Made by a program: the position numbers and the translations under genes. Below the pieces are notes generated by a model that worked only from the letters and a program-made list of their open reading frames with translations, searched no databases and was not told the origin of the DNA. From Olsenella uli (lineage in GTDB: Bacteria; Actinomycetota; Coriobacteriia; Coriobacteriales; Atopobiaceae), in the NCBI RefSeq assembly GCF_016899935.1, contig NZ_JACJJK010000004.1, positions 186,001 to 250,000 on the forward strand: a DNA stretch of 64,000 nt, in the 5' to 3' direction. Of the stretch, positions 17,661 through 48,051 are shown piece after piece. The stretch's first letter is position 1; each line of letters opens with the position of its first letter.

Positions 17661-20240
17661 CTAGCAGGTCGCCCCGCCCACGACGGTCTTGTTGAGAATC
17701 GCGTCCTTGTCGATGGGCGCGCTCAGCAGCTTCTCCTGCACGTAGTCAAAGCCAAGGCGCGCCACGGTGTCCGCGAAGCGCTCGCCGCTCTGGCCCTCGT
17801 CGCGGAAGAAGAGGATCGCGCGCTCCACCACGTCCATGACCTCGTCCTCGCTGGTGAAGATCTTGTCCAGCGCGCGGCCGTGCGCCGTCTTCTTGCCCCA
17901 GCGCCCGCCGATGTAGACCTTGTAGCCGGCCAGCCCCTCGGTCACGGCGCCAAACGGGCACGCGCCCACGCAGCGGCCGCAGTGGTTGCACGCGGAGCCG
18001 TCGATCGTGATCTTGCCGTCCGGGCCAATCTGAGCGTCGCCCATCGGGCATGCCTTCACGACCTGGCAGACCTTGCACGCGCGGCACTTCGTGAGATCGA
18101 TCTGCGGCACGCGCTGGCCAACGATGCCCAGGTCGTTGAGGTCGGGCTTGACGCACATGTTGGGGCAGCCGCCCACGGCGATCTTGAACTTGTGCGGCAG
18201 CTCCACGCCGTGGTAGCCCACGTAGAAGCGCTCGTGCAGCTTCTCGGAGAGGTCGAAGGTGTCGATCAGACCGTACTGGCAGGTGGTGCCCTTGCAGCTC
18301 ACCACCGGGCGCACCTTGGAGCCGGTGCCGCCGGCGTCCAGCCCCGCGTCCTGCAGGAACGCGATGCACGCGTCGATCTTCTCGTACCTCACGCCCTGGA
18401 TCTCCAGCGTGAGGCGCGTGGTCATGGTGACCTCGCCGGAGCCAAAGCGCTCGGCGGCCTCGGCCACGGCGCGCTGCTCGTCCACCGTGATCTTGCCGTT
18501 GCGCGTGATCACGCGGATGTTGAAGACATCGTCAAAGCGCTTGTCCTGGAGGCATCCCAGGCCCTTGAGACGCTTGATCTCTGCGGCGGGAAGCTTGGCG
18601 CCGGCTGGGCGCGGCACGCGCACCTCGTTGAACGTGGCGCCGCCCTCGAGCACGCGCGTGTTGGTGTAGCCGGCAGCCTTGAGGCGGTTCTGCGTGAAGT
18701 AGCCGCGCTTGCCCTTGGCGCACACCAGCAGGAGCTTCTCGTCCTTCTCGTGCCCGGACAGGCCGTCCGGGCCGATCTTGGTGAGGTCCACCCACTCCGC
18801 GCCGGGGATCGTGGGCGCGGGCAGCACGTCGATGACGTGGTAGTCCTTGGCGGCGCCGGCGGCGTACTCGGCCGGCGTGAAGCTCTCCAGCGCGCCCGCG
18901 AGCTTGTTCTCCAGGATGTAGCCGGTCGTGACCAGCGGGTGGATGGCGGTCGAGAAGGGCGGCGCATAGGCCAGGTCCATGAGGCCCAGGTCCTCAACGG
19001 TGAGCTTCTGGTAGAGCGCCGTCACCATCACGTCCACGACCTTGTCCACCGCGCCCGCGCCCAGTACCTGCACGCCGAGCAGTCGGTGCGTGCCGCGGTC
19101 GGCGATGAGCTTGATGAAGAAGCTCGAGGAGCCGGGGTAGTAGTGGGCCTTGTCGTCCACCACGGAGACCACGCTCACGGGGTCAAAGCCCGCCTCGCGC
19201 GCCGCGGCCTCGGTGAGGCCGGTGCGGCCGCCGTTCAGCGTGGGCAGGATCCGCACGACGCTGGTGCCGAGCGCGCCGGGGTAGGGGGTCGGCGTGCCGG
19301 TGAGCGTGCGGGCGATCGCGCGACCGGCGATGTTGGCCGTGGAGCCCATGGCGCTCCAGAACGGCTCGCCGGTGATGAAGTTCGTGACCTCGGCGCAGTC
19401 GCCGGCGGCGTAGACGTCCGGCAGGTTGGTGGCGCCGAACTCGTCCACGAGCACGCAGCCCTTGAGGGTCTCCACGCCCGAGCCCTCCAGCCACGCGGTG
19501 TTGGGCCGGATGCCGATGGAGAGGATCACGAGGTCCGCCGGCAGCGTGCCGGACGCGGTCTCCACGGCCTCGGCCTTGCCCTCGCCCGTGATGCCCACGA
19601 GCGCGCACGACGTCATCACGCGCACGCCGGCGACCTTGAGCTGGCGCTGCGCGAAGCCGGCCATCTCGGGGTCAAAGACGTTGGGCAGAATCTGCGGCAT
19701 CGCGTCGATCACGGTGACGGAGAGGCCGCGCGCGAGCAGGTTCTCGGCGACCTCCAGGCCGATGAAGCCGGCGCCCACCACCACGGCGCGGCGCGCCCCC
19801 GCGTCGGCGTAGGCGCGGATGGCCTCGGCGTCGTCTGGCGTGCGCACGGTGAAGACGCCCGGCAGGTCCGCGCCGGGAAGGCCCGCAGGCACAAACGGCG
19901 AGGCACCGGTGGCGATGACCAGCTTGTCGTACTTCTCGGCGTGGCTCGTGCCGTCCTTCTCGCGTACCGTGACCTCGTGCGCCGCCGCGTCGAGCGCGGT
20001 GGCCTCCACGCCCGTGCGCACCTCCACGCCAGTGAGCCCCGCATAGGCGGCCGGCGTGTTCACGATGAGCTCGCCGCGCGTCTGGATATCCCCGCCGATG
20101 TAGTACGGCAGGCCGCAGCCGGCGTAGCTGATGTCCTCGCTCTTAGTGACAACCACGACCTCGGCCGAGCGGTCGCAGCGCTTGAGCTTGGCCGCGACCT
20201 TGGTTCCAGCGGCCACGCCGCCGACGATCAGATACCTCAT
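17661..20240 (-). CDS. CoA-disulfide reductase/rhodanese/sulfite-reductase-like/ferredoxin fusion
   Basis: An 859-residue multidomain redox enzyme. Residues 1-440 are a FAD- and NAD(P)H-dependent CoA-disulfide reductase-type module, with MRYLIVGGVAAG, active Cys42 in YAGCGLPYY, VVVGAGFIGLEVAENL and YAAGDCAEV. Residues 455-540 form a rhodanese domain with the Cys loop VCAKGKRGY. Residues 555-690 resemble one half of a siroheme nitrite/sulfite reductase, with CKGTTC and GGCPNMC as cluster/siroheme ligands. Residues 690-770 carry two 4Fe-4S sets (CRACKVC, CNHCGRC). The minus-strand GGAAGGAGGGCCC precedes ATG 20240. This architecture suggests NAD(P)H-driven reduction of sulfur compounds such as persulfides or sulfite. 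The electron path and substrate are inference. Confidence 0.85.
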   Translation of the reverse strand: MRYLIVGGVAAGTKVAAKLKRCDRSAEVVVVTKSEDISYAGCGLPYYIGGDIQTRGELIVNTPAAYAGLTGVEVRTGVEATALDAAAHEVTVREKDGTSHAEKYDKLVIATGASPFVPAGLPGADLPGVFTVRTPDDAEAIRAYADAGARRAVVVGAGFIGLEVAENLLARGLSVTVIDAMPQILPNVFDPEMAGFAQRQLKVAGVRVMTSCALVGITGEGKAEAVETASGTLPADLVILSIGIRPNTAWLEGSGVETLKGCVLVDEFGATNLPDVYAAGDCAEVTNFITGEPFWSAMGSTANIAGRAIARTLTGTPTPYPGALGTSVVRILPTLNGGRTGLTEAAAREAGFDPVSVVSVVDDKAHYYPGSSSFFIKLIADRGTHRLLGVQVLGAGAVDKVVDVMVTALYQKLTVEDLGLMDLAYAPPFSTAIHPLVTTGYILENKLAGALESFTPAEYAAGAAKDYHVIDVLPAPTIPGAEWVDLTKIGPDGLSGHEKDEKLLLVCAKGKRGYFTQNRLKAAGYTNTRVLEGGATFNEVRVPRPAGAKLPAAEIKRLKGLGCLQDKRFDDVFNIRVITRNGKITVDEQRAVAEAAERFGSGEVTMTTRLTLEIQGVRYEKIDACIAFLQDAGLDAGGTGSKVRPVVSCKGTTCQYGLIDTFDLSEKLHERFYVGYHGVELPHKFKIAVGGCPNMCVKPDLNDLGIVGQRVPQIDLTKCRACKVCQVVKACPMGDAQIGPDGKITIDGSACNHCGRCVGACPFGAVTEGLAGYKVYIGGRWGKKTAHGRALDKIFTSEDEVMDVVERAILFFRDEGQSGERFADTVARLGFDYVQEKLLSAPIDKDAILNKTVVGGATC

Positions 20241-20338
20241 GGGCCCTCCTTCCGCGCCGCCCCTGCGACGCCCGTTGTGCCTATGGTATTCCTTACCGTG
20301 CCCTATCATGGTGCGCAGGTAAGACGAACGGAGGCCTC

Positions 20339-21145
20339 ATGCCCGCAACGGCGGTTTTCAGCGACATCGACGGCACGCTGCTCAACTCGGCGAGCCAGGT
20401 CACCCCGCGCACGCGACGGGCGATCGCGGCGGTCCAGGCCGCCGGGATACCGTTCGTCATCGTGACGGCGCGCGGGATCTCCGGGACGTATCCGCTGCTC
20501 GAGCAGCAGGAGATCTCCTGCACGGTGGTCACCTACAGCGGCGGCGTGATCTTGGACGAGGCGCGCAACGTCATTCACCACCACGGGCTCACGCGGGCGC
20601 AGGCGCAGGAGGTCGTCGACTTTGCTGAGGCCGAGGGGCTGCCCATGACCTGGAGCGCGTACTCCTTCGAGGACTGGGTGGCGCCGGACGCGAGCGACCC
20701 ACGTCTGCTCCAGGAGGAGCGCATCGTCATGGCGCGGGCGCGCGAGGGCACCATCTCCTCCATCGAGCGCGACGAGGTGCAGAAGATCCTCTGCCTCTGC
20801 ACGCCGGGCCGCACCATCGAGGTGGAACGGCGCCTTAAGCAGCGCTTTCCTGGGCTTGCGATCGCGATCTCCTCGGAGACGCTCATCGAGGTCATGCCCG
20901 CCGGATCGAGCAAGGCCGGGGCGGTCCGCACCCTCTGCGACCTCTGGGGCATCAACCCCGCCGACGCCTTTGCCTTTGGGGACAACTACAACGACCTGCC
21001 CATGCTCGAGGCGGTGGGCCGTGGCTACCTCATGGGCAACGCCCCGGCTGAGCTGCTTGAGCGCGCGTCGCTCGTCGCCCCGAGCAACGATGACGACGGT
21101 GTGGCGCGCATAATCGAGGACCAGCTGCTGACTGGGTGCTCTTGA
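20339..21145 (+). CDS. HAD-superfamily (Cof-type, class IIB) phosphatase
   Basis: A 268-residue hydrolase of the Cof/YidA-like HAD subfamily, usually sugar-phosphate or nucleotide-like phosphatases. Motif I FSDIDGTLLNS (7-17) gives the nucleophile and acid aspartates, motif II is IVTARG (41-46), motif III involves SSKAGAV with Lys near 190, and motif IV is FGDNYNDLPML. The cap domain between motifs II and III fits class IIB. ATG 20339 has GGAGGCC just upstream. It is divergent from the oxidoreductase gene; a TATCAT box near 20303 could be its promoter. The substrate cannot be predicted from sequence. Confidence 0.9.
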   Translation: MPATAVFSDIDGTLLNSASQVTPRTRRAIAAVQAAGIPFVIVTARGISGTYPLLEQQEISCTVVTYSGGVILDEARNVIHHHGLTRAQAQEVVDFAEAEGLPMTWSAYSFEDWVAPDASDPRLLQEERIVMARAREGTISSIERDEVQKILCLCTPGRTIEVERRLKQRFPGLAIAISSETLIEVMPAGSSKAGAVRTLCDLWGINPADAFAFGDNYNDLPMLEAVGRGYLMGNAPAELLERASLVAPSNDDDGVARIIEDQLLTGCS

Positions 21146-21199: not shown

Positions 21200-21420
21200 C
21201 TGCAAAACGGCCGCTCGTGTGATGATTGGCCCCGCGCGCCTGCAAAACGGCCGCTTGTGTGATAGAGATTCGGGCGTCGCGCGGGCTTGCGGTGCGCTCG
21301 CAAGGACAAACGCCCAGTTGCACCTTATCCGGAGTCGCCCTCAGGGCCCAAAACGCATCACACGAGCGCCCGTTTTGCAGTTGGCCGGCAAGGATCATCA
21401 CACGTGCGTCCGTTTTGCAG
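21200..21420. repeat. Phased inverted element: two forward and two reverse 25-bp units
   Basis: A 25-bp unit (CTGCAAAACGG...TCGTGTGATG) occurs forward at 21200-21224 and 21240-21264, and reverse-complemented at 21356-21380 and 21396-21420. Both pairs are exactly 40 bp apart start to start, and 91 bp of unique sequence separates the two halves. The whole fills the 384-bp gap between the HAD gene and the NifX-like gene. A second element of the same design lies at 47821-48051. There is no open reading frame of note inside. Confidence 0.9.
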
Positions 21421-21529: not shown

Positions 21530-21892
21530 ATGAAGGTTGCCATTCCAACCCTCGGCAAGGGTGGTCTGGACTGCGAGCGCTCCGGTCACTTTGGCCACTG
21601 CGACTGCTTCACCGTGGTCGACATCGAGGACGGCAAGGTCGGCGCCGTGACCGTCATCGACAACCCGCCCCACGAGGAGGGTGGCTGCATGCGTCCGGTG
21701 GCGCTGCTCGCCCAGAACGGCATCGACGCGATCGTGGCCGCCGGTATGGGCATGCGCCCGATGATGGGCTTCGCGCAGGCGGGCATCACTGTCTACTTTG
21801 AAAACCAGACGCCCGGCGTGGGCGACGTCGCGCAGATGGCCGCCGCCGGCACGCTCCCCGTCATGGGCGAGGAGCACGCCTGTCACCACTAA
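21530..21892 (+). CDS. NifX/NifB-type dinitrogenase iron-molybdenum cofactor-binding domain protein
   Basis: A 120-residue single-domain protein of the NifX/NafY fold: MKVAIPTLG, CERSGHFGHCDCFTVVDIEDGKV, NPPHEEGGCM, and DAIVAAGMGMRPMMGFAQAGI. Stand-alone members occur widely in anaerobes that do not fix nitrogen, and are thought to bind iron-sulfur or other metal cofactors; no nif genes are seen here. Cys and His residues (CERSGHFGHCDC, and EEHACHH at the end) could bind metal. ATG 21530 is preceded by GAGAGGAGAG. The chelatase-like gene follows, separated only by a short palindrome, so cofactor handling is a shared theme. Confidence 0.88.
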   Translation: MKVAIPTLGKGGLDCERSGHFGHCDCFTVVDIEDGKVGAVTVIDNPPHEEGGCMRPVALLAQNGIDAIVAAGMGMRPMMGFAQAGITVYFENQTPGVGDVAQMAAAGTLPVMGEEHACHH

Positions 21893-47820: not shown

Positions 47821-48051
47821 CTGCAAAACGGGCTCTCGTGTGATGTTTTTCGACGCTCGGATGCAAAACGGCCGCTCGTGTGATGGCTTTTTGGCCGGTT
47901 TCGGGAAAGAGATTCAACTTATGATAATCTTTCCTGCGGTTTTGTCCGGGCGCCGCGCGTCTGGTCCGGATTTGGCGCGAAAATCTCATCACACGAACGG
48001 TCGTTTTGCTTCTCGATCCGTCATTTCGTAGCACGAGAGGCAGTTTTGCAC
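47821..48051. repeat. Phased inverted element: two forward and two reverse 25-bp units
   Basis: The same 25-bp unit as at 21200 occurs forward at 47821-47845 and 47861-47885, and reversed at 47987-48011 and, degenerate, 48027-48051. Again each pair is exactly 40 bp apart, start to start. About 100 bp of AT-rich DNA (with TTATGATAATCTTTCC) separates the halves. It fills the 344-bp prfA-prmC gap. The last unit shows seven or so changes but keeps the GTTTTGC core. Confidence 0.9.

Follow-up and report, generated by a model that had tools for sequence, protein, structure and literature searches.

Dispersed four-arm intergenic DNA elements of Thermophilibacter and their co-variation with a linked, fast-evolving protein

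In the parS sites of plasmids P1 and P7 a conserved box is combined with a species-specific box, and in GalR-type repressosomes a LacI-family repressor occupies phased operators with HU at the apex. REPIN/RAYT systems comprise REP doublets and REP-associated tyrosine transposases (PMC3116915, PMC2817692), and the gyrase motif spans 130 bp with a 10.75-bp periodicity (PMC6379681). The locus compared with these systems here is an intergenic four-arm element of about 220 bp (21201-21419) in a genome of Thermophilibacter (formerly Olsenella; Atopobiaceae). It was analysed within a window of 64,000 nucleotides (contig NZ_JACJJK010000004.1 of assembly GCF_016899935.1, positions 186,001 to 250,000), to which coordinates without a genome prefix refer. 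The element is probably a solo copy of the site that a dedicated, fast-evolving protein (of the family called P0001 below) recognises, in a pairing that overall resembles REPIN/RAYT.

Four copies of an asymmetric 23-bp unit make up the element, two in forward and two in reverse orientation (Table 1). The original prediction had placed them at 21200 and 21240 (forward) and at 21356 and 21396 (reverse), with an exact 40-bp period in each half. Both points stand, with the true starts at 21201, 21241, 21357 and 21397 (off by one). The unit follows the pattern tgCAAAAC-N-N-N-C-N-Y-TCGTGTGAT. The gap across the central segment, counted from the TC of F2 to the GA of R1, is 107, one of a series of length classes quantised at about 10 bp. 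Elsewhere in the window, 17661-20309 (-) encodes an 882-aa protein with pyridine-nucleotide-disulphide oxidoreductase, rhodanese, nitrite/sulphite-reductase and 4Fe-4S domains.

Table 1. Coordinates of the two elements in the window and of the genes flanking the first.
Feature	Position	Strand
Arm unit F1 (TGCAAAACGGCCGCTCGTGTGAT)	21201..21223	+
Arm unit F2, exactly 40 bp from F1	21241..21263	+
Central segment between arm pairs, 93 bp	21264..21356	
Central motif CAACTGGG (consensus ANCTGSG), close to the dyad (centre 21310)	21313..21320	-
Arm unit R1	21357..21379	-
Arm unit R2, exactly 40 bp from R1	21397..21419	-
Upstream neighbour, HAD-family hydrolase (PF08282)	20339..21145	+
Downstream neighbour, dinitrogenase iron-molybdenum cofactor family protein (PF02579)	21530..21892	+
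Second element, between prfA and prmC: arm units F1 (47822-47844) and F2 (47862-47884)	47822..47884	+
Second element: central motif CCTGCGG at the dyad (centre 47936)	47933..47939	+
Second element: arm units R1 (47988-48010) and R2 (48028-48050)	47988..48050	-

The 23-bp unit was searched for as a pattern with up to three mismatches, using 100 shuffles of the window as control. Seven matches were obtained in the window versus 0.00 expected: four at 21201-21419 and three in a second element at 47822-48050, whose R2 tail (GTGCTAC) is the dialect of a sister species. A sequence-agnostic scan of the window for the arrangement F-P-F...R-P-R returned precisely these two elements at P=40, and one weak match at P=37, 38, 39, 41, 42 and 43 together. 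The whole genome (G000) held 50 unit matches, all within 14 four-unit elements, and none for the reversed-pattern control. With 11 elements in G014 and 18 in G006, 43 elements from three species were available; their arms were spaced by exactly 40 bp in 84 of 86 pairs, the exceptions being one of 41 and one of 39, and one further arm, in element L076, was degenerate. The unit is present elsewhere in this genome and in its relatives, and its spacing does not vary freely. A CRISPR had been discounted from the start, and the data agree, with two direct units per side only, inverted halves and housekeeping genes as neighbours.

Elements are about 220-230 bp long and number some 10-20 copies. Across 103 distinct elements the gap between arm pairs was 97-98, 106-108, 116-119, 126-128, 137 or 146 (Rayleigh R=0.89 at a period of 9.7-9.8 bp), the class of 116-118 being the commonest. 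Elements of G017, built on an unrelated unit, follow matching steps of about 10 bp (145, 154-156, 166). Length variants differ on one side of the core, and the distance from the core to the other arm pair is fixed. The core (GaaTTTGATTcaAttttTtATaT...ANCTGSG) is common to most elements, even where the units differ, and CTGSG lies at the dyad in the commonest gap class. Where G000 and G006 have orthologous elements, these were 95% identical at conserved unit positions, 54% at variable unit positions and 59% in the spacers, which are as unconserved as had been supposed; the excess at conserved unit positions over spacers shows that the units and their spacing are under selection. In G015 (contigs C27, C35 and C80) and at G013:C1:107694-107917 the left and right arm pairs are identical, the unconserved spacers included, so arms are at times homogenised within one element. 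At G013:C1:107694-108010 two elements of dialects TAGCG and CCACA lie within about 100 bp.

The elements are intergenic and adjoin unrelated housekeeping genes (ligA, rdgB, prfA/prmC, yebC, glnA, icd, engB and others). Twelve of the 14 elements of G000 have a counterpart in G006 at the orthologous place, between the same two genes. Gene context (tandem 55, divergent 25, convergent 9) did not differ from background, which indicates no promoter preference; a promoter operator role was rejected on the same gene-orientation statistics. The core occurs in both orientations relative to genes, independently of the direction of its neighbours. One promoter (-10) box often lies 20-65 nt outside an arm, a clustering that does not need a functional link. 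At two sites (L110 left, element L067; L099, element L056) a start codon lies 20-27 nt outside an arm, so that any promoter of the gene's own would be inside the element. Some prfA-prmC junctions have no element, and they show no clean insertion boundary. Between species, the orientation of the central segment with respect to the flanking genes is reversed at the ligA site (L055 vs L091; alignment score 31 vs 2) and at a response regulator/ABC-transporter site (L100 vs L262/L234).

Two other proposals were dropped. A role at the origin or terminus or in nucleoid occlusion found no basis in the longest site-free stretch of G006 (763-1278 kb), which is not unusual when judged against 18 random points with an estimated expected maximum gap of about 0.42 Mb (dnaA of G006 is at 1.993 Mb). 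As to an origin of element or protein from plasmids, phages or viral contigs, nothing comparable was found there, and the sole viral match was due to chance.

At ten of the 14 sites of G000, the orthologous element of some other species differs in the unit of all four arms; the recognition sequence is thus exchanged in place, and position, geometry and core are kept. Between prfA and prmC, the same architecture with other unit tails is seen in other species. Genus-wide, the 5' part of the unit (AAAA-N7-TC) is often retained and the 3' tail varies by species: TGTGAT, ATGGA, ATGAA, CAACA, CAGCA/CTACA, CCACA, TAGCG, GCGATG, GAGGTG, GGGCCGG, GATCCAT and AGTCCAT were found. The 5' part is also altered in some species (TGCGCAATCAGCGCCTTGGTGCGAA; TGCAATCAGGGGGATAGTG), and seven genomes (G003, G012, G013, G014, G016, G023 and G025) contain additional dialects. 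The prfA-prmC junctions of G012, G013, G014 and G019 (L163, L172, L153 and L162) carry palindromes of a different class, GGTTTTGGGCAAcAAGTTTGATG, which stand there alone and resemble the unit flanking the P0001 paralogues L436 and L442, and that of G002 (L167) carries a short class.

The F-40-F...R-40-R geometry recurs in another genus of the family, g36, with the unit TGCAtAAAAATGCTCTATCGGACGG and mostly a 132-bp gap. Units of its loci L323-L352 (e.g. in G207, G228, G260 and G292) end in TATCGGACGG, the centre is dyad-symmetric with ATCAA/AACTA/TGCAT motifs every 10-11 bp, and one element (G228:C2:460960-461052) has three reverse units. The g36 elements were not at the Thermophilibacter sites tested, and no P0001 homologue was found within their flanks of about 1.5 kb.

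P0001 (336 aa) is encoded outside the window, at G000:C81:120633-121640, with element L060 at the 3' end of its gene. It gave no Pfam, NCBIfam, PADLOC, PHROG or PDB sequence match, and its orthologues gave no Y1_Tnp match in Pfam at E<=1. The protein evolves fast, with 40-60% identity to most orthologues vs 87-97% for the neighbouring CNNM protein. Orthologues were present in 26 of 31 genomes, and an element lay directly 3' of the gene in 24 of these 26 by a de novo scan at a 40-bp period and in at least 25 of 26 in all; the element of G004 was found by pattern, and that of G002 is a degenerate candidate recognised by eye only. The scan also gave P0001-adjacent elements in genomes without a previously known unit, and at other periods 0-2 weak matches at P0001 3' ends. 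For the patterns and sample tested, no such element population was found in the five genomes without an orthologue (G001, G007, G010, G020 and G026).

Among close species, P0001 identity was 0.81-0.96 in six of eight pairs whose adjacent tails were identical or nearly so, and 0.38-0.69 in each of the 61 pairs whose tails differed. The partial Mantel correlation of P0001 with tail similarity, given prfA distance, was 0.49 (0/5000 permutations). P0001 sequence tracks arm dialect beyond species relatedness. In two pairs with prfA at least 99.4% identical, P0001 was only 58% identical and the tails differed. One is G005/G016, with prfA 100% identical. In the other, the alleles of Thermophilibacter gallinarum G025 and of G003 (L279:25-1050 vs L269:821-1834) are about 90% identical over the first ~75 residues and 28-72% per window over the remainder, mostly 30-60%. 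We read this as recombination with a breakpoint within the gene, since the tail of the adjacent element has switched as well: the tract took the C-terminal part of P0001 and the adjacent element together.

Adjacency of gene and element could in itself make both swap together, P0001 not reading the arms. Tails were counted genome-wide with each genome's own unit in the P0001-bearing genomes except five, and the main tail was the P0001-adjacent one in nearly all genomes examined, which would argue against mere co-swapping. The clear exception is G016, with TTGGTGCGACG beside P0001 (L405, G016:C3:76406 region) vs AGTCCAT elsewhere in the genome; possibly the protein was swapped recently and the other sites have yet to turn over. 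Given this mismatch and the extra dialects in seven genomes, a second reader or a lag in turnover must be assumed.

In the main alternative, the element is a chromosomal architectural or regulatory site read by another DNA-binding protein (a GalR-repressosome-like microloop or a partition/nucleoid-type complex) and P0001 is a mere co-swapping neighbour. Stable positions beside unrelated housekeeping genes, the phased bending signature, the promoter boxes and start codons near arms, and the occurrence of two dialects with one P0001 orthologue in some genomes all fit such a site. It leaves unexplained, however, the elements beside at least 25 of 26 orthologues, the dependence of P0001 identity on the tail beyond species distance and the paralogues flanked by their own palindromes with the same central motif (below), and a gene context like background shows no preference for promoters. 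We consider this alternative unlikely. Binding of the elements by P0001 itself is strongly inferred.

The C-terminal half of P0001 is predicted to adopt a Vsr/EDxHD-type PD-(D/E)XK nuclease fold. Residues 183-298 matched the catalytic domain of I-Bth0305I (PDB 3r3p; 95 aligned, 4.7 A) with a VIA-align Z of 8.0, a value at the edge of common arrangements; AbaSI (Z 6.3), Vsr (5.8) and TnsA (5.2) scored lower, as did PvuRts1I, and Foldseek alone gave no significant match. The assignment rests on these Z values and on a structure model that is weak overall (mean pLDDT 51, the N-terminal 172 residues unresolved) and confident for residues ~173-312 only. Orthologues conserve SNSPrE...PDF.W...EY.S...H, including its E, D, E and H. 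P0001 is nuclease-like in prediction.

Each genome has 7-19 paralogues of P0001. Twenty-four paralogue loci (L419-L442, from G000, G006, G025, G023, G004, G020, G010, G026 and G001) were inspected. At 14 of them the gene lies between palindromes built on a common, family-specific unit; two such pairs were seen in 400 kb of control DNA. Most palindrome families inspected share the centre ACCTGCG/CCGCAGG/TATCTGGG. The simplest reading of these sequences would assign the constant centre to the constant catalytic-type domain and the variable arms to the variable part of the protein. The paired palindromes are inverted in L420, L423 and L436 and direct in L431 and L435, and the bracketed paralogues resemble a small composite mobile unit.

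The remaining alternatives fared worse. A MITE-like non-autonomous transposon family, its arms being the ends of a DDE or tyrosine-recombinase element, would account for the inverted arms, which look like ends and carry two direct sites each, and for multiple intergenic copies. Flank repeats of at least 5 bp, however, as expected of target-site duplications, occurred in 4 of 103 elements vs 4.1 expected, positions are conserved over species, and no near-identical recent copies were seen within G000. Mu_transpos_C (Mu/TnsB transposase) gave no match in the 31 genomes, in a search whose positive control was also silent. A cognate tyrosine recombinase was rejected, since G023 and G025 contain many elements yet two such enzymes each, probably XerC/D. 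This origin is very improbable.

A/T peaks are arranged symmetrically around the dyad, at about 110, 89, 69.5, 46 and 35.5 bp on each side. Several of them are occupied by AAA or TTT with no strand preference, and this interchangeability is a signature of bending, not of base pairing. The periodicity and the GC-rich centre recall the 130-bp gyrase motif, and the element might accordingly be a strong gyrase/topoisomerase site of BIME type pinned by sequence-specific arms; the phasing, however, reaches about +/-110 bp, beyond the 130 bp of gyrase, and species-specific dialect arms are not a gyrase property, which makes such a site extremely improbable. A structured RNA (double stem) or transcription attenuator, suggested by the overall inverted symmetry, is scarcely credible, as the middles of the would-be partner arms F1/R2 and F2/R1 matched at 3.14 and 3.24 of 6 vs 3.14-3.31 for non-partners, no Watson-Crick covariation or compensatory change was found between arms or in the core, the gap is stepped by helical turns, the core lies in both orientations to genes and Rfam gave no gathering-threshold match (a sub-threshold SNORD88 hit was due to chance).

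The element is best taken as a DNA nucleoprotein site, not an RNA. Between the two possibilities originally offered, paired protein-binding sites phased on the helix and an RNA double stem, the first is supported: the spacing is exactly 40 bp, the gap changes in steps of about 10 bp, the A/T tracts are phased, purifying selection falls on unit positions only and the arms co-vary with a protein. The second has been abandoned.

A mechanism for a recognition site of the P0001 family can be proposed. Two protein molecules per side would bind the two asymmetric arm units (AAAA-N7-TCG plus dialect tail) 40 bp apart, the arms being read by the variable middle of P0001. The central ~100-130 bp, with its A/T tracts in helical phase, would be bent or wrapped, bringing the inverted arm pairs together over the central motif (A)NCTGSG, and the conserved Vsr/EDxHD-like PD-(D/E)XK domain would act at, or be held over, the shared centre (CTGSG); we infer both the wrapping and the action at the centre. 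Dialects would change when recombination replaces the 3' part of the gene and the adjacent element, after which the other sites would turn over, so that protein and arm dialect would change together and positions, geometry and centre would stay. Because many intact sites coexist, cutting may be rare, regulated or lost. P0001 may still cut or move DNA or may now be a binding-only (architectural or regulatory) protein, and the system may be selfish, as in REPIN/RAYT, a domesticated architectural or regulatory one, or both.

We lean towards an undescribed two-component element of the Atopobiaceae, a Vsr/EDxHD-like multigene family in which each member has its own palindromic, helically measured four-arm sites, dispersed over fixed chromosomal positions, and in which the arm dialect of every site follows in place once recombination has exchanged the reading domain. 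No paper on these repeats was found in open-access PMC, and the system is new in that sense only; that it is also categorically new seems to us somewhat probable. If true, it would be a bacterial co-evolution of a protein with genome-wide landmarks, in spirit a parallel to PRDM9 or DUS dialects, and a rare case in which the whole site set of a genome changes its recognition sequence in step with one protein, the sites unmoved. The dozen or so dialects, the dozens of species and the swappable linked protein would make specificity change without loss of sites directly testable, and a natural code between protein variants and 20-bp specificities would be at hand. A function is also suggested for a large unnamed protein family of gut Actinobacteria.

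Compared with BIMEs and the gyrase motif, the elements share helically phased A/T tracts around a GC centre and an intergenic position, but their arms are sequence-specific, with dialects by species, and their four-site architecture is fixed. As in P1/P7 parS and the GalR repressosome, two arm sets would be joined over a bent centre; the elements also combine a conserved part with a species-specific one, as P1/P7 parS does, and have an operator-like phased geometry. Unlike both, they are chromosomal and multi-copy, with two units per side at 40 bp, and no ParB or LacI-type protein was found in association with them. EDxHD/Vsr-like homing endonucleases provide the best match of the C-terminal domain (I-Bth0305I) and a like acidic/His pattern, and the P0001 gene stands beside its presumed recognition site. 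The gene is free-standing, however, with no intron or intein seen, and paralogues have different sites within one genome; many intact recognition elements are present in the same genome, so P0001 does not simply cut every site. REPIN/RAYT is likest in its dispersed, mostly intergenic, inverted doublets, in a dedicated nuclease-type gene flanked by its own elements (on one side for P0001, on both at the 14 of 24 paralogue loci), in long vertical persistence and in the concerted evolution of element and protein. In contrast to RAYT, P0001 has no Y1/HUH match and is predicted to carry a Vsr-like PD-(D/E)XK domain instead. Its elements differ from REPINs in being four-site duplex DNA of fixed 40-bp and helical-turn spacing, in showing no GTAG/CGTC-tagged hairpins (by inspection the units are not self-complementary) and no covariation for single-strand pairing, in numbering about 10-20 copies instead of hundreds and in switching arm dialect in place. 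On a conservative view the system may be a REPIN/RAYT analogue with unrelated parts, and such an unrelated counterpart bears on the puzzle of small palindromic element populations that bacteria keep for long periods.
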